DNA from: Amphiplicatus metriothermophilus
GTDB taxonomy: Bacteria > Pseudomonadota > Alphaproteobacteria > Caulobacterales > Parvularculaceae
Reading direction: 5' to 3'
Length of the DNA stretch: 64,000 bases
Assembly: GCF_900199215.1 (NCBI RefSeq)
Contig: NZ_FZQA01000001.1
Location: 682,001 to 746,000, forward strand
The notes under the pieces are model-generated. The model was not told where the DNA came from and did not search any database. It worked only from the letters and a program-made list of their open reading frames with translations. A program made the position numbers and the translations under genes. Below are positions 5,327-64,000 of the stretch, piece by piece (position 1 is the stretch's first letter; every line of letters starts with the position of its first letter).

Positions 5327-5686
5327 ATGGCGTCCATTCTTTTGGCGGAAGACGACGAGTCGATGCGCAAATTCCTGAAGAAGGCGCTGGAGCGCGCCGG
5401 CCATGTCGTCGTCGACGCCGGGCAGGGGGACGAGGCCCTGACGGAGCTGCAGCTCAGGGAGTTCGATCTTCTGCTGACCGACATCGTCATGCCGGTGATG
5501 GACGGCATCGAGCTCGCCCGGCGCGCCGCCGAGATCGACCCCGACATGAAGATCATGTTCATCACCGGCTTCGCGGCGGTCGCGCTCAATCCCGCCAACC
5601 GGGCGCCGCACGACGCCAAGGTGCTCTCCAAGCCTTTCCATCTGCGCGATCTGGTGCAGGAGGTCGAACGGCTGGTCGCGGCCTGA
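5327..5686 (+). CDS. cpdR: response regulator CpdR
   Basis: A 119-residue single-domain receiver. Acidic residues EDD (8-10), the phospho-acceptor Asp in LLTDIVMP (about 51), the Thr/Ser switch in FITGF and the conserved Lys in LSKPFH are all present. The stretch ALNPANRAPHDAKVLSKPFH closely matches CpdR of Caulobacter and relatives. Unphosphorylated CpdR primes the ClpXP protease for cell-cycle substrates such as PdeA and is needed for CtrA turnover; the CckA-ChpT relay controls it. ATG follows GAGGCGAAAGAACG. It is monocistronic in this window. Confidence 0.93.
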   Translation: MASILLAEDDESMRKFLKKALERAGHVVVDAGQGDEALTELQLREFDLLLTDIVMPVMDGIELARRAAEIDPDMKIMFITGFAAVALNPANRAPHDAKVLSKPFHLRDLVQEVERLVAA

Positions 5687-5713: not shown

Positions 5714-5967
5714 AACGGGGGACGCCGGCCGGCGCGCGGGCCTGGCGCGGTTCGACGGCGGGCGCGTTCGGCGCGGGCCGGGCGCGGCTGTCTCAAGGAA
5801 GCGGCCCGAGCCGGTCATTCGCCTCAGGCTGCGCCCGCCGCCGCCAAACGCCGCCCTTGCGCCCCGCCCGGCGCGGGCGGACCTGACTCCCGATCTCTTC
5901 TGATCCCTGATCCTTCTCCCGCCCGGCTTGCCTCCGTCGCGGTTTGCCGATAGACAGCGGGCCTTCA

Positions 5968-6042
5968 GGGCGCATAGCTCAGTGGAAGAGCGCCACCTTG
6001 ACACGGTGGAGGCCGATAGTTCGATCCTATCTGCGCCCACCA
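5968..6042 (+). tRNA. tRNA-Val (GAC anticodon)
   Basis: A complete cloverleaf: acceptor GGGCGCA (5968-5974) pairs with TGCGCCC (6032-6038), then A and an encoded CCA (6040-6042). The anticodon stem CCACC/GGTGG encloses loop TTGACAC, giving anticodon GAC for valine. The T-arm contains GTTCGATCC. The AT-rich accessory block begins directly downstream. Confidence 0.95.
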
Positions 6043-6142: not shown

Positions 6143-6769
6143 TCAAGCGAGCGAACAGGCGGCGGCCAGCGTCAACGACCGTTTCGAAATTTCAAGCTGC
6201 GTCCGCGCCGTTTCAGCGAACGGCGAGTCAATATCTATGAGGCGTTGATAATCTCTGAGATTTAGACTCATGACCGCCACATCGCCATATTCTTCATGAT
6301 GCTTCCTGAAAAGAAATTCGTATCCGAATTTCTGGAAAAAACCGGTCAAGTGACGATTGCAATCCATAAACGACGTATCGATTTCATGAGCCAGGCCGAA
6401 CACGTACAGGTGCTTGAATATATCGACAGAGACATGAGTCCTGCGATACTTCGGCGATACCATCAGGCGCGTGCAAATGCTGGCGCGGCTCAGAGCATCA
6501 GGGTTGAGAAGCCGGTCAAGCTCGTAAAAGTCGAAGTAGTCGCCGACCGGACCTTCCTTGAGCAGGTTTGCACGGATGCAGGCGACGATTCGTCCGTCTT
6601 TATGCGCCACGACCTGCCTCGCCGTATCGTCCAGCGGATCGCGGATGGTTTTGGTTCTGTGGCAAGCATATCGTTGCTTGCGATGCATTTCCTCGACATA
6701 GATGCCGTATCTGAAAGAATACAGCTCTTCAGGACACTCGGCCGGGGTATATATGCGATACTCAAACAT
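6143..6769 (-). CDS. FeeM-like N-acyl amino acid synthase / GNAT-fold acyltransferase
   Basis: A 208-residue protein with the LuxI/FeeM-type acyltransferase fold: FRYGIYVEEM at residues 19-28, RDPLDDTA at 43-50, IVACIRANLL at 61-70, ICTRLMVSPKYRR at 98-110 and DCNRHLTGFFQKFGYE at 136-151. FeeM-type enzymes join a long acyl chain, usually from acyl-ACP, to an amino acid or amine. GC is low (counted 25/60 and 27/60 in two lines at 6301-6420) against about 70 % nearby, suggesting acquisition by transfer. It lies 4 bp after the diiron oxidase gene and is surely co-transcribed. The substrate is unknown; plain GNAT activity is the alternative. Confidence 0.7.
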   Translation of the reverse strand: MFEYRIYTPAECPEELYSFRYGIYVEEMHRKQRYACHRTKTIRDPLDDTARQVVAHKDGRIVACIRANLLKEGPVGDYFDFYELDRLLNPDALSRASICTRLMVSPKYRRTHVSVDIFKHLYVFGLAHEIDTSFMDCNRHLTGFFQKFGYEFLFRKHHEEYGDVAVMSLNLRDYQRLIDIDSPFAETARTQLEISKRSLTLAAACSLA

Positions 6770-6773
6770 GCGC

Positions 6774-7511
6774 TTACGCGACCGAGCGTCGGCTTTCGGT
6801 GGGAACGATGCGGTCGGCGTTTAACTCCTCCCAATTCCAGCCGGGTTCGGCCGGCGCGCGCGCATCTTCGACCGCCTGCATCATCATTTGAGAATAGAGA
6901 TATCCGGTCGTCTTCATGGCGTAGGAGACCCTGTCGAGATCCGCTTCATCCCGGATTAGGGCGTCCGCGTAACGCTCCATCATCCGGTTGTGGCCCTGAT
7001 CGATGGTCGTATGGTCGCGCAGGAAGGTCATGGCGCCGTCGGGCACGCCGATTTTGCGCAAGGCCTCCATCATGCCTGCGCCCGACTGCGTCGGCGTGAA
7101 TTCCAGGAAAAACAGATATCCCAGATACCCCAAAGGGTTGAGGTTGTAGATCTGATAAAAGCCATAGGCGAGAAGCGCCGTCGTGGCCGGCAACGGATTT
7201 TGGTACGGAACGTCGGTCGCGTCGCCGCCGAGGGCGACGTAGTCGTTCAGCGCGAGCTGGTCGTGCCCGATTTCCGAGGCCGCATGCTTGAAGAACATGC
7301 GGACCATGTCCCGCTGGCGGCCTTTGAAATAAACGGTCGCGAGCACCTGCAGCTGCGGGTTCTCGCGCGTATGGTGAAACACCTCCCGCATGATCGTCCG
7401 GTATTCCGCAACCGTCATCCGGCCGCTGGTCAACAGCGACACCGGCTCAGACCGGATGAAGTCTGCGAAAATTGGTTGAAACCGTTCCTTCAGACTCTCG
7501 AACATCGACAC
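6774..7511 (-). CDS. heme-oxygenase-like diiron oxidase (HDO, iron-containing redox enzyme family)
   Basis: A 245-residue all-alpha protein related to the TenA/heme-oxygenase-like oxidases (UndA, CADD, BesC group). A full candidate ligand set is visible: E80 and H83 in HAASEIGH, E137 in FLEF, and H167, D171, H174 in DHTTIDQGH, fitting the H-x3-D-x2-H pattern of the family. Known members use O2 to cleave or desaturate amino or fatty acids. The ATG at 7511 gives MSMFESL; an ATG two codons later is possible. It is the first gene of a two-gene operon with the FeeM-like acyltransferase and faces a divergent kinase gene. Confidence 0.75.
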   Translation of the reverse strand: MSMFESLKERFQPIFADFIRSEPVSLLTSGRMTVAEYRTIMREVFHHTRENPQLQVLATVYFKGRQRDMVRMFFKHAASEIGHDQLALNDYVALGGDATDVPYQNPLPATTALLAYGFYQIYNLNPLGYLGYLFFLEFTPTQSGAGMMEALRKIGVPDGAMTFLRDHTTIDQGHNRMMERYADALIRDEADLDRVSYAMKTTGYLYSQMMMQAVEDARAPAEPGWNWEELNADRIVPTESRRSVA

Positions 7512-7720
7512 AGGAAGTCCCCTTATTACCGTCGGCTGCGGAATTATCTTAACAAATAGTTAAAGTTTATCATTAATGCAATTCGAAAAAAACGCACAGC
7601 CCTTTCGACACGGACACGACGATCTCAGCGGGCGGGCGGAAAATCGTTAATAATCTTGAGCGGTCGCCGGCGCGCCTCGTTAACGCTATTCTAACGCTGC
7701 GTCGCCACTACTGTCGGCAA
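7512..7720. promoter_or_regulatory. divergent intergenic region between the HDO operon and the kinase gene
   Basis: These 209 bp separate the minus-strand oxidase/acyltransferase operon from the plus-strand kinase-like gene, so both promoters should lie here. The left part (7550-7600) is AT-rich, with AACAAATAGTTAAAG and GTTAAT-type stretches. TTAA appears several times, but no convincing CtrA pair (TTAA-N7-TTAA) was found. No inverted repeat for a lux-box-type operator was evident. Confidence 0.5.
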
Positions 7721-9166
7721 GTGGGCCGGCGCATGCGAAAATCGGGAAAAATCAATCGCTGGACGGGCAAGTTCGCCTCAGATGAACTGGAGGCGGAATT
7801 CCAGAGTCACATTTTCGACGTCAACAGACGGCATAATTTCCTAGCGGTGGCGATCGCCCTGCCGCTGATCTCCGGCTACGTGCTGCTAGACAGCACGGTG
7901 CTCGAGCATGCCGGGTTCGCGATTGCGTTGCGCCTGTCCGTCATCGCCTTCTGCGCAGCGCTGCTCGTCACCATGAAGATCCCTAGCCTGTCGCGCCATC
8001 ATGAGCTGGTGACGGCGACGATCATATTCCTGCTTGGATTGGTGATGAATGCGATCGTATGGAAAGAGCCGAGCCTCGGCCACAACTACTATGTTGGTCT
8101 TATACAGGGTGGGGTTTTTATTAGTTTTTTATTGAGAGTCGGCATTATAAAGTTATATTCTATATTAATATCTACATATTTGATATTTTTGATCGTTTCC
8201 CAGGGCAAGGGGCAACCTGAGGAGGCGATTCTTCAGGCGGTCGTGCTGCTCACGATGTTTTCCTTGTGCGGCTTCGGAAGCAATCTGCTGGAGCGGCACC
8301 GTCGGACGGAGTTTCTGCAGGCGCGGACCATCGAACGCCAGAACGCCCAGCTCAAGCGGATGCTCGAAGACATCCGGCTCGACAACGCGCGCAAGGTGGC
8401 GGCCATGAACACGCTCGTGCATTTCGTGCGCACGCCGATCCATCAGATCTCCGGCTTCACCGACGTCGTCATGAACGCGCTGAGCCAGGCGGCGGAGGAG
8501 GAAGGCAAGCTTCCCCCCGACTGCCTCAAGAGCGTCGGCTACATCAAGAACGCCTCCAACGAGCTGGCGGGCAACGTCGCCAAGCTGCTCGCCTATTACC
8601 GGCTCGACGACGGCGCGGCGCAAGGAAGACCGGCGCCGGCGCCGCTCCATGAGATGGCGCGCGACTTCAAGGAGCAGATCGCGCCGGAAATCGAATGCGC
8701 CTTTTCCGGCGAGAAGATCGAGATCATGAGCCATGTCGAGCCGATCCGCATCGCCCTCAGCTCGCTCGCGCAGGCCTATAACGAGAAAGCCGGCGCGATC
8801 TCGCGCATGGACGTCGTGCTCGCGCGCGCGCCCGAAGGCGCGGCGATCGTGATCGTCGACGACGGGCCCGGCCATACGCCGGAGGAGTTTCGCGAGCTCG
8901 CCAAGCCGCTCACCAAGCTCGACCGCTATCTCACCAGCGACGGCTCGGCCATGCCGATGGCGATCAGAACGGCCGCCCGCGCGGCCGAGGTCTGCGGCGG
9001 CGCCTTGACCTATGAGCCGGCGCCGGGCGCCAATCGCCTGACGCTGCGGCTCAAGGATCTCGCTCCGGCTGAGGGCGAGGCGGCCGGCGAGGCCGCGCCC
9101 GCGCCCGCGCCCGACGCCGAGAGCGCCGAAACGGCGCCCGCTCTTCGCGCCGCCGGGGCCGCCTGA
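7721..9166 (+). CDS. membrane-bound histidine-kinase-like sensor with degenerate catalytic motifs
   Basis: A 481-residue protein. Residues ~40-190 hold about six hydrophobic segments with few loops (an integral-membrane sensory domain), then a coiled-coil linker, a HisKA-like helix with VHFVRTPIHQ (candidate His234) and an ATPase-like part with VDDGPG (D380, G382, G384). The residue after the H-box His is Phe where active HisKA kinases keep Glu/Asp, the N-box asparagines are missing (SSLAQAYNE), and the G2 box is not GxGLGL. The tail is Ala/Glu/Pro rich. The 5' half is AT-rich (counted 18/60 GC at 8101-8160). Start is GTG at 7721 or ATG at 7733. Confidence 0.7.
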   Translation: MGRRMRKSGKINRWTGKFASDELEAEFQSHIFDVNRRHNFLAVAIALPLISGYVLLDSTVLEHAGFAIALRLSVIAFCAALLVTMKIPSLSRHHELVTATIIFLLGLVMNAIVWKEPSLGHNYYVGLIQGGVFISFLLRVGIIKLYSILISTYLIFLIVSQGKGQPEEAILQAVVLLTMFSLCGFGSNLLERHRRTEFLQARTIERQNAQLKRMLEDIRLDNARKVAAMNTLVHFVRTPIHQISGFTDVVMNALSQAAEEEGKLPPDCLKSVGYIKNASNELAGNVAKLLAYYRLDDGAAQGRPAPAPLHEMARDFKEQIAPEIECAFSGEKIEIMSHVEPIRIALSSLAQAYNEKAGAISRMDVVLARAPEGAAIVIVDDGPGHTPEEFRELAKPLTKLDRYLTSDGSAMPMAIRTAARAAEVCGGALTYEPAPGANRLTLRLKDLAPAEGEAAGEAAPAPAPDAESAETAPALRAAGAA

Positions 9167-9208: not shown

Positions 9209-10669
9209 ATGAATCAGCGCAGAATGAAAGCACGCCGCGCGCGCGTCGTCGAAGCGCCGGGCGCGGCGCGCACAAAAAGGGGGGAGCGCGTGGCTTTCCG
9301 GTTCAATCGCATCGACTGTCTTCGCACGATTTCGGGCGCAGTTTCCGGGGCCGCTTTGAGCGCGGTCCTGGGGGCGATCCCGGCCGGGGGCGCGTTCGCC
9401 TCGGGGTTCGCGGTCGAGCACCATAACGCCCGCGCGCTGGGCGCGGCCTTTGCGGGCGCCCAGGCCCGCCGGGCCGACGCGGGCTTTGCGGCCTACAATC
9501 CCGCCGCCATCGCAGGGCTCGCGCGCGCCGAGATCTCCTCGAGCGCGACGGCGCTATGGGGGCCGACGGAGTATGCGGACGCCGAGGGCGTGCTGCTGGG
9601 GACGACCCCGATCGCCGGGCGCGCCAGCGACGACGGCGTGCTGCCGCCCGCCTTCATTCCGAGCTTCGCCTACGCCGCGCCGCTCGCCGACCGGATCGCC
9701 GTCGGCCTGACGGTGATCTCGCCCTTCGGCCTGCGCAGCGAATTCGCGGACGACGCGATCGTGCGCTATCACGCGCTCGACTCGCGCCTTCTCACCATCG
9801 CCGTCTCGCCGACGCTCGCCGTCGATGTGGCGCCGGGCCTGACGATCGGCGCGAGCCTGCGCCTGCAATACGCCGATATCTCGCTGGAGACGGCGGTCGA
9901 TGCGGCCGGGCTCGCCGCGCTGCTCACGGGCGCGCCGCTGACGCCGGGGACAGACGACGTGCTCGCCGATCTCGACGGCGATGATCTCGCGGTCGGCTTC
10001 ACCGCCGGCGCGCAGATCGAGGTGACGCCGCGCCTGCGGGTCGGCTTCAGCTACGCGTCGAAAATCGAGCACGACCTGCGCGGCGACGCGGCCTTCGGCA
10101 TCGAGGACAGCGCCGCCGGCGCCGCGCTCAACGCCGCGACGGGCGTCTTCGCGCCGACGAAATTCTCGGGCGCGCTGTCTTTGCCGGCGACCTATGCGCT
10201 CGGGGCGGCATATGAGGCGAGCCCGGCGCTCACCCTGCTCGCCTCGGCGACCTATACGCGCTGGTCGGTTCTCGATCGGCTCGAATTCGCCTTCGACAAT
10301 CCCGCCCAGCCGCCCGAAGCGGTGACGCAGGACTGGTCGGACACCTGGGCGTTCTCATTCGGCGCCGATTACGCGCTCGGGGAGAAGACCGGGCTGCGCG
10401 CCGGCTTCATGTTCGACGAAACGCCCGTCAACGACGCCTTCGCCGGCCCGCGCATCCCGGACACGGACCGATACTGGCTCACGGTCGGGCTGACCCGCCG
10501 GCTGAACGAGCGGCTGTCGGCCGATCTCGCCGCGGGCTATGTGTTCAGCGCCGACCGCGAGGTCGCCCTTACGGGCGCCGCGCCGGAGGACCTGCTGCGC
10601 GGCTCGCTGTCGACCAGCATCGCCGTGACGACCTATGTCGCGGGCGGGCGGCTGCGCTACGCATTCTGA
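9209..10669 (+). CDS. fadL: OmpP1/FadL-type outer membrane transporter
   Basis: An outer-membrane beta-barrel of the FadL family for uptake of long-chain fatty acids or other hydrophobic compounds. After the signal sequence the mature N-terminus GFAVEHHNARALGAAFAGAQ and the NPAAIAGL motif are typical (NPA family box), and the protein ends in a beta strand with terminal Phe. ATG 9209 has GGAG six bases upstream. An in-frame GTG at 9290, preceded by AGGGGGGAG, gives a better-sized signal peptide (459 aa) and may be the true start. It follows the kinase-like gene by 42 bp on the same strand. Confidence 0.85.
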   Translation: MNQRRMKARRARVVEAPGAARTKRGERVAFRFNRIDCLRTISGAVSGAALSAVLGAIPAGGAFASGFAVEHHNARALGAAFAGAQARRADAGFAAYNPAAIAGLARAEISSSATALWGPTEYADAEGVLLGTTPIAGRASDDGVLPPAFIPSFAYAAPLADRIAVGLTVISPFGLRSEFADDAIVRYHALDSRLLTIAVSPTLAVDVAPGLTIGASLRLQYADISLETAVDAAGLAALLTGAPLTPGTDDVLADLDGDDLAVGFTAGAQIEVTPRLRVGFSYASKIEHDLRGDAAFGIEDSAAGAALNAATGVFAPTKFSGALSLPATYALGAAYEASPALTLLASATYTRWSVLDRLEFAFDNPAQPPEAVTQDWSDTWAFSFGADYALGEKTGLRAGFMFDETPVNDAFAGPRIPDTDRYWLTVGLTRRLNERLSADLAAGYVFSADREVALTGAAPEDLLRGSLSTSIAVTTYVAGGRLRYAF

Positions 10670-57382: not shown

Positions 57383-57524
57383 ACGGCCAAGGCTCTGGAT
57401 TTTCAGAAGAAACCCGGCCTAAAGTCGCCGCTCAACCCGCGGCATGGCCGCGGATTTTCATAACCGAAAGGGGCTGAAAGCCCCGGGACTGGCGCACGGG
57501 GGCGGCGCCGCAAGCGGAGGGATC

Positions 57525-59072
57525 ATGACGGAAGCAGTTGCAACGCCGGGGGCCGGCGCCGAGCGAAAGACCTGGTTCGGTCATCCGCGCGGACTGGCGG
57601 TCTGCTTTTTCACGGAGATGTGGGAGCGTTTCTCCTACTACGGCATGCGCACGATCCTCGTGCTCTATCTGACGAAGTACCACCTGTTCACCGCCGGCGA
57701 GGCGAGTCTCATCTACGGCGCCTATGCGGGCCTCGTTTATATGATGCCCATTCTCGGCGGCTATTTCGCAGACCGCTATCTCGGCCAGCGCAAGGCGGTG
57801 ACTTACGGCGCCGTTCTGCTGGTCGCCGGCCACGGCCTGATGGCGTTTCACGGGCCGCAGGCCTTCGTGGAAGGCGACGTCGTCGTCCGCAACGATTTCT
57901 ACATCAACATTTTCTTCCTGGCGCTCGCCCTTATCATCACCGGCGTCGGCTTCCTGAAGGCGAACATCTCGACCATCGTCGGCGCGCTGTACGGACCGGA
58001 CGATCCGCGCCGGGACGGCGGCTTCTCGATCTTCTACATGGGGATCAATCTCGGCTCGCTGATCGCGACCCTGCTCGTGGGCTATGTCGGCGAAACTTAC
58101 GGCTGGAACTACGGGTTCGGCCTTGCGGGCATCGGCATGTTGATCGGCCTTCTGGTGTTTCTGTCCGGGCAGAAGCTGCTCGAAGGCAAGGCGGAGCCGC
58201 CGAGCCCGGAAAGGCTGAAAGAAAAGACGCCTATCGGCGTCAATAAAGAGGTCGCCATTTATCTCGCGGGCGTCGGTCTCGTGGGCGCCAGCTGGGTGAT
58301 GATGCAGTTTCAGGAGCTGGTCGGCCGGCTGCTGGGTTTCTCCGGCCTCGTCATGCTCGCCATCATCATTTTCTACGCTTTCACCAAATGCGACCGCATC
58401 GCGCGCGACAGGCTTCTGGTGGCGGCTTTTCTGATCGCCATTCAGTCGGTGTTCTGGGCTTTGTTCGAACAGCAGGCGGCGAGTCTGACTCTGCTCGCGG
58501 ATCAGCAGTTCGATCTCACCGTGCTGGGGATCGAGCTCAAGGCCTCTCAGGTTCAGTTCATGAACCCCCTGTTCATCGTGATGTTCGCGCCGGTGTTCGC
58601 CTGGCTGTGGCTGGCGCTGGCCAAACGCAAGCTCGAACCCACGAGCCCCGGGAAGTTCGGCATCGCCATGCTGCTGATCGGCCTCGGCTATATCGTCTTC
58701 TCGTGGGGCATGGGGCTTGAGGACGGGACGAACAAGAGCTTCTTCTGGCTGATCCTGATCTATCTTGCGCTGACCTTGGCCGAGCTTTGCCTGAGCCCGG
58801 TCGGGCTTTCCATGGTGACGAAGCTCAGCGTGCCGCAGATCGTCGGCATGATGATGGGCACGTGGTTCCTGTTCACGGCGCTGGGCAATTACGTCGCGGG
58901 CTGGATCAGCTCGCTCACCGGCGCGGAAGGCCACGGCGTCGAGGCGGGCCAGCTCGACATGTCGGCCGTCATGTCGGTCTATACGCAGATCGGCCTTATC
59001 AGCATCGGGGTCGGGGTGTTCATTCTCGTCCTGACGCCGCTTCTCAACAAGGGAATGCACGGCCGGCATTGA
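57525..59072 (+). CDS. POT/PTR family proton-dependent oligopeptide transporter
   Basis: A 515-residue MFS-type peptide transporter with about 14 helices. The POT signatures EMWERFSYYGMR (ExxER motif and PTR signature) and GGYFADRYLGQRKAV are near the N-terminus; FLKANISTIVGALY and FYMGINLGSLIA follow. It imports di- and tripeptides with protons. ATG 57525 has GCGGAGGGATC directly upstream. The leader contains two GC-rich hairpins (for example GGGGCT/AGCCCC), not recognised as a riboswitch. Confidence 0.93.
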   Translation: MTEAVATPGAGAERKTWFGHPRGLAVCFFTEMWERFSYYGMRTILVLYLTKYHLFTAGEASLIYGAYAGLVYMMPILGGYFADRYLGQRKAVTYGAVLLVAGHGLMAFHGPQAFVEGDVVVRNDFYINIFFLALALIITGVGFLKANISTIVGALYGPDDPRRDGGFSIFYMGINLGSLIATLLVGYVGETYGWNYGFGLAGIGMLIGLLVFLSGQKLLEGKAEPPSPERLKEKTPIGVNKEVAIYLAGVGLVGASWVMMQFQELVGRLLGFSGLVMLAIIIFYAFTKCDRIARDRLLVAAFLIAIQSVFWALFEQQAASLTLLADQQFDLTVLGIELKASQVQFMNPLFIVMFAPVFAWLWLALAKRKLEPTSPGKFGIAMLLIGLGYIVFSWGMGLEDGTNKSFFWLILIYLALTLAELCLSPVGLSMVTKLSVPQIVGMMMGTWFLFTALGNYVAGWISSLTGAEGHGVEAGQLDMSAVMSVYTQIGLISIGVGVFILVLTPLLNKGMHGRH

Positions 59073-59143: not shown

Positions 59144-59704
59144 ATGCCTGACCGCCTTACGAAAATCGTCACCCGGCGCGGGGACAAGGGGACGACCGGG
59201 CTGGGCGACGGGACGCGCCTTTCCAAGACCGATGCGCGCATCGCCCTGATCGGCGAGATCGACGAGCTCAACAGCTGGATCGGCGTCGTCCTCGCCCATG
59301 CGCCGGGCGAAGCGGCCGCCGCGACGCTCGCGCGCGCGCAGCACGATCTGTTCGATCTCGGCGGCGGGCTCGCCATGCCCGGCGCGCCGCTCCTCTCGCC
59401 GCGCCATGTCGCGCGGCTGGACGAAGCGGCCGCCGCGCTCAACAAAGACCTGCTCCCGCTCAAGGAGTTCATCCTGCCCGGCGGGGCGCCGCTCGTCGCC
59501 TGGCTGCATGTGGCGCGGACCGTGTGCCGGCGCGCCGAGCGCGCCGCAGTCCGGCTGCTCGCGGGCGAGGAGGCGGGCGCGGCCGCGCTCGCCTATCTCA
59601 ACCGGCTGTCGGACTATCTTTTCATCGCCGCGCGCTTCGAGGCGAAGCGCCTTGGCGCGGGGGAAGTCCTCTGGCGCAAGGGCGGCGGGTCCGCCGACGA
59701 TTAA
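59144..59704 (+). CDS. PduO-type cob(I)alamin adenosyltransferase
   Basis: A 186-residue ATP:corrinoid adenosyltransferase. N-terminal ATP site TKIVTRRGDKGTTGLGDGTRLSK, then EIDELNSWIGVV, FILPGG, ARTVCRRAERA and LNRLSDYLFIAARFE, all conserved in PduO-type enzymes. It converts cob(I)alamin to adenosylcobalamin. GGGAGG precedes the ATG. It converges on, and overlaps by 4 bp, the cobalamin ABC transporter operon. Confidence 0.94.
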   Translation: MPDRLTKIVTRRGDKGTTGLGDGTRLSKTDARIALIGEIDELNSWIGVVLAHAPGEAAAATLARAQHDLFDLGGGLAMPGAPLLSPRHVARLDEAAAALNKDLLPLKEFILPGGAPLVAWLHVARTVCRRAERAAVRLLAGEEAGAAALAYLNRLSDYLFIAARFEAKRLGAGEVLWRKGGGSADD

Positions 59705-60480
59705 TCCGCTTCGGGAAGATCGAAAACGATAGTCGGGCGCGACGGCTCGCCCAGGAAGGCGGCGCGCACGCCGAAAACCTGCTTGAGGCGTTCAGGCGCG
59801 AGAGCCGTCTCGGGCGGGCCGTCCGAAGCGATCGCGCCGTCGCTTAGAAGGACGATCCGCGTGCAGAATCGCGCCGCGAGCGCGAGGTCGTGCAGCGCCG
59901 CGATGACCAGCGCGCCCTCGTCGGCCCGCCGCCGCAGAGTCTGCATGATCGCGAGCTGGTGGCGCGGGTCGAGCGCGGCGGTCGGCTCGTCCGCGAGAAG
60001 CGCAGGCGTCTCGGCGGCCAGGGCGCGCGCCAGATGCACGCGCGCCGCTTCGCCGCCCGACAGCGCGTGGGCCGGGCGCGCCGTCAGATGCGCGACGTCG
60101 CACGCGGCGAGCGCGCGCGCGACCGCCGCCGCGTCCTCGCCCTCAAGGCGCGCCGGCGCGCCGTAGGCGAAACGCCCGAGCGCGACGATCGCGCCCGCCG
60201 GCATCGCCCAGTAAACGGGGCGCGCCTGCGGCAGATAGGCGACGCGCCGGGCCCGGACGATCGGCGCAAGCGCGCGCGCCGGCGTCCCGTCGATCAGGCA
60301 CGCGCCCGCGTCCGGCTCTTCCAGGCCGATGAGCGCGCGCAAGAGCGTCGATTTGCCCGCGCCGTTGGGGCCGACGAGCGCGACGAACACGCCGGCTTCC
60401 GCGACGAAAGACACGCCCTTGAGGATCGGCGCGCCGTCGCGGCCGACATGAAGGTCGCGGGCTTCGATGCGCGCGCTCAT
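59701..60480 (-). CDS. btuD: ABC transporter ATP-binding protein, cobalamin type
   Basis: A 259-residue ATPase. Walker A GPNGAGKST, Q-loop YLPQARP, signature LSGGEAARVHLARAL, Walker B ALLADEP and switch His ALHDLALA are intact. It belongs to the FecE/BtuD type for siderophore, heme or B12 import. The start overlaps the permease stop as ATGA. B12 is preferred over iron because the operon faces a cobalamin adenosyltransferase. Confidence 0.85.
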   Translation of the reverse strand: MSARIEARDLHVGRDGAPILKGVSFVAEAGVFVALVGPNGAGKSTLLRALIGLEEPDAGACLIDGTPARALAPIVRARRVAYLPQARPVYWAMPAGAIVALGRFAYGAPARLEGEDAAAVARALAACDVAHLTARPAHALSGGEAARVHLARALAAETPALLADEPTAALDPRHQLAIMQTLRRRADEGALVIAALHDLALAARFCTRIVLLSDGAIASDGPPETALAPERLKQVFGVRAAFLGEPSRPTIVFDLPEAD

Positions 60481-61496
60481 GCGGCGAGCCTCCGCGTGCG
60501 CGCCGCGATCCAGACAAAGCCCGGCGCGCCGATCAGCGCGGCGGCGACGCCGAGCCGGAGCTCCTGCTCGAAGGGCAGGAGCCTCACGGCGAAATCCGCC
60601 GCCGCGACAAGGGCGCCGCCGACGAGCGCGGCCGGAATGATCGCGCGCGCCGGGTCGTGGCCGACGAAGGGTCGCGCCAGATGCGGCGCGACGACGCCGA
60701 CGAACCCAATCGCGCCGGCGATCGATACGCTCGCCCCGACCATCAGCGCGGCGCCGGCGATCGTCAGCAAACGGAGCCGGGGAAGATCCGCGCCGAGGCT
60801 GAAAGCGGCCTCTTCGCCCAGCGTCAGCGCGCGCAGGCCCGGCGCGGCGAGGAGCAGCATGGCGAGGCCGGCGGCGAGAAACGGCGCGGCGAGCGCGAGG
60901 TCCGGAAAGCTGCGATTGGCGACCGAGCCGAACAGCCAGGAGACGAGATCGGTGAGCACGAAGGGATTGGGCGCGAGATTCATGACGAGCGCGGTGAGCG
61001 CGCCGCAGAAAGAGGAAATGCCGACGCCGACGAGAATGAGCCGCGCCGTCGAAACGCGTCCGGCGCCGAGGATGTAAAGCAGTCCCGTCGCGCCCAGCGC
61101 GAACAGGATCGAGGCGAGCGGCGTCATCCAGAAGGCGAGCGCGGCGAGATTGAAGTAGATGGCGATCACTGCGCCGAGGGCCGCCGCCGCCGACACGCCC
61201 AGAACGCCCGGATCGGCGAGCGGATTGCGCAGCAGCCCCTGCAGGCCCGCCCCCGCCGCGCCGAGCGCCGCGCCGGCGAGCCAGGCCGCAAGCGCGCGCG
61301 GCAAGCGCACTTCCTGCGCCACGAGGACGATCGCCGGATCGCCCGCGCCGACCAGCCCGGCGAGCGCCGCGCCGACGCCAATGGGCGCCGGGCCGAAGAG
61401 ACAGGAGACGACGATGACCGTCGCGCCCGCGCCCGCGAGCAGCGCCGTTGCAGGAAAAGCGGCGCGCGACAGCGCGGACAGGTCACTCGGCGGCAT
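60477..61496 (-). CDS. btuC: FecCD-family permease, cobalamin type
   Basis: A 339-residue inner-membrane permease with about ten helices. Typical motifs: RLPRALAAWLAGAALGAAGAGLQGLLRNPLADPGVLGVSAAAALG (conserved helix and loop, abbreviated here as RNPLADPGVLG), WLFGSVANRSF, GFVGVVAPHLAR and LPFEQELRLGV. ATG 61496 is chosen because GGAGGGCGTC lies directly before it; a TTG start 21 bp upstream is less likely. It overlaps the end of btuF by 14 bp. Confidence 0.87.
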   Translation of the reverse strand: MPPSDLSALSRAAFPATALLAGAGATVIVVSCLFGPAPIGVGAALAGLVGAGDPAIVLVAQEVRLPRALAAWLAGAALGAAGAGLQGLLRNPLADPGVLGVSAAAALGAVIAIYFNLAALAFWMTPLASILFALGATGLLYILGAGRVSTARLILVGVGISSFCGALTALVMNLAPNPFVLTDLVSWLFGSVANRSFPDLALAAPFLAAGLAMLLLAAPGLRALTLGEEAAFSLGADLPRLRLLTIAGAALMVGASVSIAGAIGFVGVVAPHLARPFVGHDPARAIIPAALVGGALVAAADFAVRLLPFEQELRLGVAAALIGAPGFVWIAARTRRLAA

Positions 61497-62325
61497 GACG
61501 CCCTCCGGCGACCCCAAGGCCGGCGGCGATGCGTTCGGCGGCTTCGACAGAGAACCATGCCGGGCAGCTCAAGAGGTCCGCAGGCAGATGAACGACCCGC
61601 GCCTGCTCGAAGACCGCCCGAAAGGCGGGATGGCGCGCCGCCGACCAGTTGCTCGCGCGTTCGCTGGCGAGGGTGAAAAAGCCCGTGACGATCGCTCCCG
61701 GCGGGTCGAGAACCAGCGTCTCGGCCGGCAGGGGCGGCCAGCCGGAAAGGCCCGCCGCGGCGGCGGCGTTTCTCACGCCCGCGGCGGCGAAAATCGCGTC
61801 GACCATCGTCCCGGCGCCGGCGGTGACGCCGCCCGGGGTGACGTAAAGCGCGGTCGGCGCGGTGGTTTTACGCTGTGCGAGCGCGGCGAGTCTTTTATCG
61901 AGCTCCGCGATCAGCGCTTCGCCGCGCGCGCGCTGCTCCAAAGCGTCCGCCGCCATACGGATATTCGCGCGCACCGTATCGAAGTCGGTCGTGTAGGAAA
62001 GGGTGACGACCCGCGCGCCGGCGCGCTCCAGGGTTTCCGCCAGCCGCGGGGCGCCGCCCCAGAAGCGAAGGACGACGTCTGGCCGGCGCGGCAATATCTC
62101 CTCGGCGGCGGGACGAAGCTGCGGCAGGCCGCGCGCCGCTTCGCGCAGATAGGCGTAATCGCCGGTCGCGCCCGGCGAGACGCCGGCGATCTGATCCGGG
62201 TCGGCGAGCGCGATCAGAAACTGGTCTGCGCAATAATCGAGCGAGACGGCGCGCGGGCCTGCCTGCGCGGCGGCCGACGCCGCCGCGCAAAGAAAAAGCG
62301 CGAAGACGCCCGCGCGCGCGCTCAT
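61483..62325 (-). CDS. btuF: periplasmic substrate-binding protein, BtuF-like
   Basis: A 280-residue binding protein with a signal peptide (cleaved after ASAAAQA). The helical-backbone binding fold is marked by AVSLDYCADQFLIALADPDQIAG, RPDVVLRFWGG, and TDFDTVRANIRMAADAL. It would deliver cobalamin to the BtuCD transporter. Start ATG 62325 overlaps the receptor gene stop as ATGA, so the whole transport system is one operon. Confidence 0.83.
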   Translation of the reverse strand: MSARAGVFALFLCAAASAAAQAGPRAVSLDYCADQFLIALADPDQIAGVSPGATGDYAYLREAARGLPQLRPAAEEILPRRPDVVLRFWGGAPRLAETLERAGARVVTLSYTTDFDTVRANIRMAADALEQRARGEALIAELDKRLAALAQRKTTAPTALYVTPGGVTAGAGTMVDAIFAAAGVRNAAAAAGLSGWPPLPAETLVLDPPGAIVTGFFTLASERASNWSAARHPAFRAVFEQARVVHLPADLLSCPAWFSVEAAERIAAGLGVAGGRHAAE

Positions 62326-64000
62326 AGCCGTGCCCTCACGCCGCCGAAGACGGCGATCCCCGGCTCGCCGAAGCCGAGAACGTCCTGGTACTGCGCATCG
62401 AAGGCGTTCTCCAGCCGGGCGTAAAGCTCGATTTTCTCGTTGACGGCGTAAGCGCCGCGCAGATCGACCCGGACGAAATCGTCGACGATCCCGCCGATGT
62501 CGTTCTCCTCGCCGTTATAGCGAAGCGTCGCGCCGAGGCTCAGCGCGGCCGTCGCCCGCCAGTCGGCGCTCGCCGTTGCGGCGTGGCGCGGCTGGCGCAA
62601 CAGCGGCGCGCCGGTCTGTTCGTTCTCGCCCTTGACGAAGGCGTAGGCGACATGAAGGTCGAGCGCGGAAAGGGGCCTCAGGGCGAGCTCGGCCTCGACC
62701 CCGCGCCGCAGGGTTTCGTCGAGATTGACAAAGGCGCCGCTGAAAAAGTCGAAGTCGATCTGGTTTTCCGTCCGCTGGCGGAAATAGGTCGCGCGCAACG
62801 TCGCAAGCGCGCCGAAGCGCTTGTCGAAGCCGGCCTCCCAGCCGGTCGACGTCTCCGGCCTCAGGTCGCGATTCGGCGCCGTCCCGCCGCAGCAGACGAA
62901 ATTGAGCTGGAACAGCGTCGGCGCGGCGAAGCCCTCGCCCCAGCTTCCGCGAAGCGTAAGGTCGGCCGCCTCGACCGCGTAGGCGGCGGTCACGCGCGCG
63001 GTAGTCTCGCCTCCGAAGGTTTCGTGATCGTCATGGCGCGCGCCGGCGGTGACGGTGAGCGGCGCGACGGGCTTGACGGCGACGAGGCCGTAGACGCTGT
63101 TGACGACGACGTCCTCGTCGGCCTCGGCCGTGTCGATGCGCGTGCGCTCGCTCTTTGCTCCAGCGACGAGCGAAAGGCGTTCCGAAAAACGGATGCGCGC
63201 GAGATATTCCGCCGAGATCCGGCCGCCGCGCGATTCGAAAGTCGTCATTTCGCCGAGCCGGTTCTCCCGCTCGATGCGGTGATAGCCGATGCTGGCGATA
63301 TTCTCGGACCTGCCGTCGAACAGCGTCAGAATCGCGCGCCCGGCGGCGAGCACGGACTCCGACTCCTCGACGTCGTCGGTGTCGGCGAGCGTAAAGTCCG
63401 GGGGCGGAAAGCCGTCGAACTCGGTCAGGGCGTGATTGTAACGCAGCGAGCTTTCCAGACGGAAATTTTCGGCGAGATCGGCGCCGAGATTGGCGCTCGC
63501 CGTATAGCGCTCGAGCCCGTCGGCCTCGCGCGCGCCGTCCGCTTCGTCGGCGCGGCTGACTCCGTCGGTCGTCAGGCCGGAGACGGTAAGGCCGTAATCG
63601 AGCCTGCTTCCCGCGCCGGTAAGGCCCGCCCCGCCCCGAAAGGTCGCGAAGGAGCCGCCTTCGACAAAAGCATTGAGCGAAGGGGCGCCGGCGCCGCGGC
63701 GGGTCGTGATCGCGACGACGCCGCCAATGGCCTCCGAGCCGTAGAGAATGCTCTGCGGCCCGCGCAGGATCTCGATGCGCGCGATGTCGGCGACGTCGAG
63801 ATCGCCGAAATTGAACCCGCCGCCTGGCGCGGCCGGGTCGTTGACGACGACGCCGTCGATCATGACGAGGGTGCGCCCGCTCGCCTCGCCGCGAATGCGC
63901 AAGGCCGCCTGGCCGCCGAACGCGCCGTTGCGCGCGATCGAAAGGCCGGCCGCGTCGGCGAGCGCGTCGGCGACGAACTGATACTGCCGCGTCTCGATCT
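62322..64000 (-). CDS. btuB: TonB-dependent receptor, BtuB-like, 5' part outside the window
   Basis: The C-terminal ~559 residues of an outer-membrane TonB-dependent receptor; the signal peptide, TonB box and start lie beyond the right edge. Plug-domain motifs are visible (VMIDGVVVNDPAAPGG, IEILRGPQSILYGSEAIGGVVAITTRRG), then a 22-strand-type barrel ending in the terminal strand FGGVRARL. Assignment as vitamin B12 receptor rests on its place at the head of the btuF-C-D operon. A cobalamin riboswitch would be expected upstream, outside this window. Confidence 0.85.
   Translation of the reverse strand, partial: IETRQYQFVADALADAAGLSIARNGAFGGQAALRIRGEASGRTLVMIDGVVVNDPAAPGGGFNFGDLDVADIARIEILRGPQSILYGSEAIGGVVAITTRRGAGAPSLNAFVEGGSFATFRGGAGLTGAGSRLDYGLTVSGLTTDGVSRADEADGAREADGLERYTASANLGADLAENFRLESSLRYNHALTEFDGFPPPDFTLADTDDVEESESVLAAGRAILTLFDGRSENIASIGYHRIERENRLGEMTTFESRGGRISAEYLARIRFSERLSLVAGAKSERTRIDTAEADEDVVVNSVYGLVAVKPVAPLTVTAGARHDDHETFGGETTARVTAAYAVEAADLTLRGSWGEGFAAPTLFQLNFVCCGGTAPNRDLRPETSTGWEAGFDKRFGALATLRATYFRQRTENQIDFDFFSGAFVNLDETLRRGVEAELALRPLSALDLHVAYAFVKGENEQTGAPLLRQPRHAATASADWRATAALSLGATLRYNGEENDIGGIVDDFVRVDLRGAYAVNEKIELYARLENAFDAQYQDVLGFGEPGIAVFGGVRARL

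Follow-up and report, generated by a model that had tools for sequence, protein, structure and literature searches.

Between positions 6143 and 9166 of a 64,000-nucleotide stretch of Amphiplicatus metriothermophilus DNA (assembly GCF_900199215.1, contig NZ_FZQA01000001.1, positions 682,001–746,000; the whole stretch is called the window below) lie three genes: one for an acyltransferase of the predicted FeeM/LuxI fold, one for a haem-oxygenase-like diiron oxidase (HDO) and, divergent from these two, one for a six-helix membrane protein that is probably a histidine pseudokinase and is called the sensor for brevity. The two enzyme genes are 4 bp apart, and a divergent region of 209 bp separates the HDO gene from that of the sensor. 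A preliminary description of this DNA had given the adjoining tRNA-Val(GAC), the coordinates of the open reading frames, the 4-bp gap and the divergent gene, all of which were recovered by ARAGORN and by the reading-frame calls (Table 1). The trio is not a chance assembly; it is a conserved three-gene module.

Table 1. Features of the locus in coordinates of the window.
Feature	Position	Strand	Evidence
CpdR response regulator, CckA-ChpT-CtrA network	5327..5686	+	NF046022 201 bits, cut-off 180; neighbour via conserved synteny
tRNA-Val(GAC)	5968..6042	+	ARAGORN; landmark of the site by synteny
FeeM/LuxI-fold N-acyltransferase (predicted fold), GNAT superfamily, 208 aa	6143..6769	-	PF21926 36.2 bits, cut-off 27; AlphaFold; Foldseek
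Haem-oxygenase-like diiron oxidase (HDO), 245 aa	6774..7511	-	PF14518 64.7 bits, cut-off 28.9; 3 His + 3 carboxylate ligands
CtrA-type box TTAA-N7-TTAA, upstream of HDO gene	7549..7563	.	Exact in 19/22 orthologous intergenic regions
Imperfect CtrA-type box, one mismatch, upstream of sensor gene	7680..7694	+	Site with at most one mismatch within 80 nt of sensor start in 14/22 loci
Six-helix membrane protein, DHp + degenerate ATPase domain, probable histidine pseudokinase, 481 aa	7721..9166	+	Hydropathy; motif table over 21 orthologues; AlphaFold
FadL/OMPP1 outer-membrane lipid transporter	9209..10669	+	PF03349 258 bits; neighbour outside conserved core

The HDO was searched for in 149 genomes, that of A. 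metriothermophilus included. Homologues with at least 54% identity were present in 22 of these, all Parvularculaceae, the little-studied family to which A. metriothermophilus belongs, and 16 further matches reached at most 28%. All three genes are present in each of the 22 close loci, with the acyltransferase adjacent and the membrane protein divergent. Scanning named genomes yielded 27 loci, of which 21, judged by contig position, coincide with 21 of the 22 close relatives and were counted once; these 21 are all from metagenome-assembled genomes (MAGs), 13 of them named Marinicaulis, five Parvularculaceae and three only Alphaproteobacteria, and the other six lie outside. Across the 27 named loci the acyltransferase adjoins the HDO in 25 and the membrane protein in 21, so that the two enzyme genes, which the preliminary description had allowed might never be found together elsewhere, are a recurrent pair. 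No acyltransferase was seen in L054, where the contig ends 612 nt past the oxidase gene, or in L057 (Planctomycetota; HDO of 38% identity), and both of these also deviate at one metal ligand of the oxidase (Lys at the position of E80 in L054; D171 absent in L057).

As a control, approximately 1.5 kb was viewed on each side of distant HDOs of the same Pfam family. An acyltransferase stood beside none of 36 such loci (8 of 16 and 28 of 70 distant matches) and beside three of 12 from a class-wide search, a total of 3/48; the three exceptions (L088, L090 and L093) belong to the same class. In the reverse view, 22 of 289 genomes in the class encode acyltransferases of this type, at 23 places in all, and an HDO lies alongside at four of the 23, the window's own locus included. 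Taken together, the control and the reverse search indicate that this HDO subfamily is nearly always accompanied by the acyltransferase, whereas the converse is false.

Gene order differs among the 22 Parvularculaceae loci, the acyltransferase being co-directional with the oxidase in 12 (type A) and convergent in 10 (type B). The tree of the acyltransferases unites the B rows (98/97) and, separately, 11 of the 12 A rows (99/98); the A-type L051 joins the B side on a long branch. Placed on the oxidase and sensor trees, the A/B labels require four changes each, at least two of them forced by well-supported branches, and are still clustered; in the oxidase tree, weak inner branches are numerous (7 of 25 starred). 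As the acyltransferase may lie downstream, upstream or convergent, the linkage is more than an inherited operon structure. Judged from these trees, the divergent core of oxidase and sensor is stable, and its partner seems to have been exchanged more than once for another acyltransferase of this kind; such apparent repeated replacement argues for a functional need for the pair.

The six metal ligands of the HDO (E80, H83, E137, H167, D171 and H174) are invariant in all 22 close relatives, that of the window included. Against the PDB, the HDO profile matched 3dde, whose function is not known, with 99 bits and MboA with 43.5 bits, the latter being the nearest protein of known function found; MboA is reported to form alkynes via iterative desaturation of a peptide side chain (PMC13185094). 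A broader HDO alignment also matched CT610/CADD (1rcw, 32 bits) and BesC (7twa, 25 bits). The HDOs are described as a large family with functions validated for no more than about a dozen members (PMC13108848). In the part of that review that was covered the word ‘acyltransferase’ occurs 0 times and no HDO-acyltransferase pairing appears, and no paper linking HDOs with FeeM-type enzymes was among the open-literature matches listed. The oxidation of an acyl product by the HDO is plausible and has a parallel in the Tyz cluster described below. Separately, many HDO relatives of 75–107 bits were observed elsewhere in the phylum, above all in one family of small genomes (f39) where a separate HDO group is common; none of 28 checked loci had an adjacent acyltransferase. 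Plasmid records searched with the oxidase gave 37 matches, all below 60% identity and some beside SDR and AMP-binding genes, and named no function.

The acyltransferase was modelled by AlphaFold from 26 sequences, with a predicted local distance difference test score (pLDDT) of 95.5 and a predicted template modelling score (pTM) of 0.88. Foldseek with this predicted model placed coenzyme A (CoA)-dependent acyl-homoserine-lactone (AHL) synthases (MesI, BjaI and RpaI) at PDB ranks 1–7, followed by the first GCN5 at rank 8, LasI at 10, FeeM (2g0b) at 15 and TofI at 18, mixed with general GNATs. Five 2g0b chains in the best 50 gave TM-scores of 0.62–0.65 by query length (best E 1.4e-7), compared with 0.50–0.58 for the general GNATs in the same list. 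A Pfam scan to an E-value of 1 listed FeeM and general GNAT families and no autoinducer-synthase family; in NCBIfam neither enzyme was matched at E-values up to 1. Among nine related acyltransferases PF21926 was over its cut-off in six (L037, 40.1; L050, 35.2; L051, 30.1; L052, 44.5; L088, 37.3; L090, 35.7 bits), below it in L053 (20.8 bits) and without a match in L055 and L093. The preliminary description had proposed an HDO with a complete ligand set and a FeeM/LuxI-fold N-acyltransferase, and both identifications hold, by the Pfam scores of Table 1, by the invariant ligands and by the predicted fold; the clustering with ordinary GNATs that it had also contemplated is at odds with a Foldseek list headed by seven AHL synthases.

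The enzyme TyzA is reported to N-acylate amino acids, and a DALI search with its model finds FeeM and BjaI (PMC10404671). Since TyzA shares these structural neighbours and no autoinducer family was matched, N-acylation of an amino acid or similar amine is the reaction that we infer for the acyltransferase of the window. In L050 (8800–9903), L088 (383–1516), L090 (371–1495) and L093 (317–1453) a cyclic-nucleotide-binding domain is fused at the C terminus (60–74 bits), the acyltransferases of the last three being approximately 375 aa long; at the level of sequence, this suggests second-messenger control of the acylation step. Furthermore, a fatty acid desaturase (L053, 10813–11925; PF00487, 113.5 bits) directly follows the acyltransferase-oxidase pair in L053.

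In Pfam the membrane protein scored 19.1 bits for HisKA and 17.4 bits for HATPase_c, both below cut-off. Hydropathy and the AlphaFold model (pLDDT 81.7; pTM 0.51) predict six membrane helices followed by the paired helices of a DHp domain and a domain resembling an ATPase, and the cytoplasmic part of the model matches HK853, RetS and EnvZ-type structures; the sensor profile also finds the DivL structure (21.5 bits). The phospho-acceptor histidine (H234) and the threonine four residues on are kept in all 21 orthologues aligned. In the same 21 proteins a Phe follows the histidine where an acid is usual, and the second glycine box (G2) is replaced (Met at 413 in 21 and at 411 in 20); the N box is uncertain in this alignment. 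These replacements make the membrane protein a probable histidine pseudokinase, for which the label of kinase in the preliminary description was too strong. The phospho-acceptor helix pair is kept but a working ATP site is probably lacking, so that the protein would act without phosphorylating itself. As a side observation, its membrane domain (window 7721–8310) shows a weak profile similarity, of 25 bits, to the six-helix domain of the diguanylate cyclase ImcA (8wcn; PMC10904736).

The region between the divergent genes contains an exact TTAA-N7-TTAA box in 19 of the 22 loci, against a mean of 0.48 and a maximum of 4 in 300 dinucleotide shuffles, the loci being related and their counts consequently not independent. 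Control spacers of 4–6 and 8–10 gave one to five loci. In the 21 named loci, 20 exact sites were found in the intergenic regions and three in 372 kb of flanking DNA. The box at 7549–7563 is the sole exact one in the window and one of 27 in the 3.16-Mb genome, where the backwards pattern occurs 10 times. The spacer bases vary; of the 18 sites with full flanks, 13 have a C directly after the box, and the nineteenth site (L041) has an A; TTAA-N7-TTAAC is the CtrA motif reported from chromatin immunoprecipitation sequencing in Hyphomonas neptunium (PMC7200025). On the sensor side, 14 of 22 loci carry a site with no more than one mismatch at 80 nt or less from the start, where 200 shuffles gave 2.0 on average and 8 at most, and five of these 14 sites begin with TTAACCAT, the half-site as published (PMC3692519). 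The genome encodes CtrA (424.7 bits, cut-off 350) and a ChpT-type phosphotransferase (79.2 bits, cut-off 22.9). From these motifs both divergent promoters appear to be wired to CtrA, the cell-cycle master regulator. No exact box was found in the intergenic region of L037, L049 and L051, no box before the first gene of the pair in L050, L052, L053 and L055 (outside Parvularculaceae), and no CtrA-type box in the 400 nt upstream of the canonical kinases in L141–L143 described below. A sigma-70 scan gave six promoter-like sites against 1.2 expected, several of them inside genes, and was not decisive.

The chromosomal site itself recurs in relatives, cpdR and tRNA-Val(GAC) being found together in seven of ten stretches taken from them. 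At this same site (cpdR, tRNA-Val, then FadL), three congeners without the pair, L141, L142 and L143, carry canonical relatives of the six-helix sensor, with HELRTP, ENA and DxGxG motifs, a normal G2 box and HATPase scores of 61.6–77.8 bits compared with 17.4 for that of the window. A Glu follows the His in the four canonical relatives aligned, these three and one in L056 (12137–13630). A fatty acid desaturase is present at the site in L142 and L143 (72 and 115 bits), and methyltransferase Pfam matches, below cut-off, were obtained in L056, L141, L142 and L143, with none in L144. A PhcB-like identity of these methyltransferase-like genes, considered as a lead, is not claimed, the Pfam matches being below cut-off or absent. 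The order in L056 is pseudokinase, oxidase, acyltransferase, canonical kinase, methyltransferase-like gene (29.3 bits, cut-off 30) and FadL (259 bits). Both here and in L044 (12178–13641) a canonical sensor relative lies a few kb from the pseudokinase module, and the two might work together. With alternative sets at one site, it looks like a place that combines a six-helix sensor with different lipid enzymes.

In the genome of A. metriothermophilus itself, a search with the L142 kinase at an E-value of 1e-30 found no close canonical relative of the sensor. None of the three genes lies between the tRNA and the next syntenic gene in L148, from another genus, or on the 3 kb of contig after the tRNA in L145. 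Plasmid searches with the methyltransferase-like gene, the L142 kinase and an acyltransferase (one match) named no function. FadL adjoins the sensor in three of the 22 loci (L031, L033 and the window) and is further off in L056, several contigs being short on the FadL side. It was therefore rejected as a core part, and the link to FadL drawn in the preliminary description was not borne out.

The GC content is 58.6% in the block and 69.0% in the whole window, and the lowest-GC stretch of 3,024 nt (steps of 100) starts at 5901 with 57.5%. The AT-rich block of the preliminary description is hence confirmed, as is its contrast with surroundings of about 70%, the block lying within the lowest-GC 3-kb region; the true 60-nt minima (acyltransferase, 35%; membrane part of the sensor, 18%) are below the figures it had counted. 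At third codon positions GC is 60% in the acyltransferase, 79% in the HDO and 80% in the sensor, compared with 87–89% in five neighbouring genes. The lowest-GC kilobase outside the block (58001–59000, 61.3%) coincides with a 542-aa transporter-like reading frame (57444–59072), and at 59701–63902 an ABC transporter set beside a TonB-dependent receptor-like reading frame was noted by eye, with strong AT skew in 60001–62000. A role in anti-phage defence was dropped, PADLOC giving no match for the three proteins at an E-value of 0.01.

We propose, with about equal expectation of its being right or wrong, that the module makes an oxidised N-acyl amino acid or similar acyl amide under the control of CtrA, and that the pseudokinase probably senses this product. 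The FeeM/LuxI-fold enzyme would attach a fatty acyl chain, from acyl-CoA or acyl-acyl carrier protein, to an amino acid, via its amine, or to a similar small amine. With two irons and O2, the HDO would then oxidise the acyl product, for instance by desaturation or oxidative decarboxylation. What the six-helix domain probably detects is this product or the state of the membrane lipids, and the pseudokinase would pass the signal on by contact, dephosphorylation or phosphate relay, perhaps into the CckA-ChpT-CtrA network. The conserved grouping, the ligand residues, the eroded kinase motifs and the boxes are observed and the folds predicted; the substrates, the product, the ligand, the direction of signalling and the binding of CtrA in this scheme are those that we infer. 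A more far-reaching version is put forward tentatively, since it is rather unlikely to hold in full: a new lipid-signal circuit in which the LuxI/FeeM-fold enzyme and the HDO build an oxidised acyl amide, the six-helix pseudokinase reads it without ATP, and the signal enters CckA-ChpT-CtrA, the network that itself controls both promoters; at the site, species would exchange enzyme sets as well as types of sensor.

Several observations weigh against a sensed acyl amide as the product of the module. The strongest point against signalling is that the enzyme pair stands elsewhere without this sensor and may there simply make a lipid. This is the case in L050 (Rhodospirillaceae), L052 (Deltaproteobacteria CG11), L053 (Pseudomonadales) and L055 (Gammaproteobacteria), MAGs of other proteobacteria whose taxon labels call for caution, and in L088, L090 and L093; for some of them little flanking sequence was available (in L052 the pair is preceded by 0.1 kb, in L050 it is followed by 0.8 kb, and L090 is a 3-kb contig), and L050 has a kinase-type gene fragment convergent to the oxidase with 35.5 bits to the sensor profile. 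The enzymes thus do not need the sensor, and sensing may be an add-on or unrelated. The sensing idea, already voiced in the preliminary description, consequently stands only in part, favoured by the co-occurrence in 22 of 22 loci of one family and by the CtrA-type boxes on both divergent sides, and opposed by these seven loci. Moreover, within the genus six of nine genomes have no HDO match, three of those six being 72–84% complete; one of the six, G005, has a pseudokinase-type sensor at a contig end beside FadL, so that its module may have been truncated there. Of the 21 orthologues, one keeps the second Gly of DxGxG, the sensor of the window itself, for which residual ATP binding is therefore possible. 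The catalytic Glu of FeeM (Glu95 as reported; PMC4897644) was not placed in the acyltransferase, where E27 and D44 are the only invariant carboxylates of the aligned set (A4). Finally, no response regulator was named as part of the module.

The loci without a sensor would also be expected if the pair made a structural or protective lipid or a natural product (acyl amide, biosurfactant or envelope lipid) and the membrane protein tuned envelope physiology in the cell cycle with no sensing of the product. FeeM-type products are reported to include surface-active N-acyltyrosines (PMC4897644), and cell-cycle control by CtrA would fit envelope lipids. This explanation is nevertheless doubtful, given the coupling of the pair to the divergent six-helix protein in all 22 Parvularculaceae loci and the boxes on both divergent sides. 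That the acyltransferase is itself an AHL synthase, and the locus a LuxI-type quorum-sensing system with a membrane receptor, would agree with the seven top Foldseek matches; it is improbable, as the Pfam scan lacked the autoinducer-synthase family, NCBIfam gave no match, and TyzA, a maker of N-acyl amino acids, is reported to have the same fold similarity (PMC10404671).

An ordinary, active sensor kinase, with the trio as a standard two-component-regulated set, is a very improbable reading of the membrane protein. The invariant His and Thr of the DHp domain and the structural matches of the cytoplasmic part are what such a kinase would give, but Phe follows the His and G2 is lost in 21 of 21 proteins, the second Gly of DxGxG is lost in 20 of 21, and HATPase_c falls far short of the scores in the three same-site relatives. 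Least probable of all, to the point of being nearly dismissed, is a recently acquired tRNA-associated island with genes adjacent by accident. The block does have the lowest GC of the window and lies beside a tRNA; conservation of the trio in 22 of 22 loci contradicts mere adjacency, the context of cpdR and tRNA-Val is conserved, and the window holds no second copy of the tRNA end, its repeats being only imperfect and GC-rich. A recent tRNA-mediated island was thus rejected as the cause of adjacency; an older horizontal spread of the trio is possible.

The HDO subfamily, through its near-constant pairing with an N-acyltransferase, gives direct access, via two genes, to a new reaction and a new lipid. 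Should the pseudokinase read the lipid and CtrA control the genes, the module would constitute a concrete molecular link from a lipid signal to cell-cycle control in Alphaproteobacteria. A precedent for such a direction of influence is reported in Ruegeria, where AHL quorum sensing acts upstream of the CckA-ChpT-CtrA network (PMC3692519).

In layout, the locus may resemble the Phc, Lqs and Cqs lipid-signal systems, in which a signal-synthase-like enzyme stands beside a histidine-kinase-type membrane sensor. PhcS and LqsS have six helices. CqsS is reported to have six as well. The synthases of those systems are different, and here the sensor is a probable pseudokinase with no response regulator seen as part of the module. 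DivL is not known to have a six-helix sensor of this kind or an adjacent lipid enzyme pair. DivL is similar in being a histidine pseudokinase linked to CtrA, and is reported to act by contact with CckA (PMC7200025).

The oxidase shares with the HDO family (UndA, MboA, BesC, SznF and CADD) the fold family and, from its sequence, the ligand set of 3 His and 3 carboxylates; its partner, unlike theirs, is an acyltransferase, and no characterised member was found in its subfamily. The acyltransferase resembles FeeM-type synthases in its PF21926 match and predicted fold, and two published members of that type are reported with a C-terminal PilZ second-messenger domain (PMC4897644), comparable to the cyclic-nucleotide domain in L050, L088, L090 and L093; it differs in its pairing with an HDO and in that its catalytic Glu was not located. 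The closest parallel in chemistry would be the Tyz acyl-oxazolone cluster (TyzABC; relative Oxz), described as combining a LuxI/FeeM-fold N-acyl amino acid synthase with an O2-dependent oxidase, TyzC, which desaturates the acyl product (PMC10404671). There, the oxidase is a flavin enzyme of the nitroreductase superfamily and a ThiF-like cyclase is added, whereas here the oxidase is an HDO and there is no third enzyme. The theme of N-acyl synthase plus oxidase is therefore known, and its combination with a lipid-sensor-like protein, of which no description was found among the open-literature matches listed, is new.

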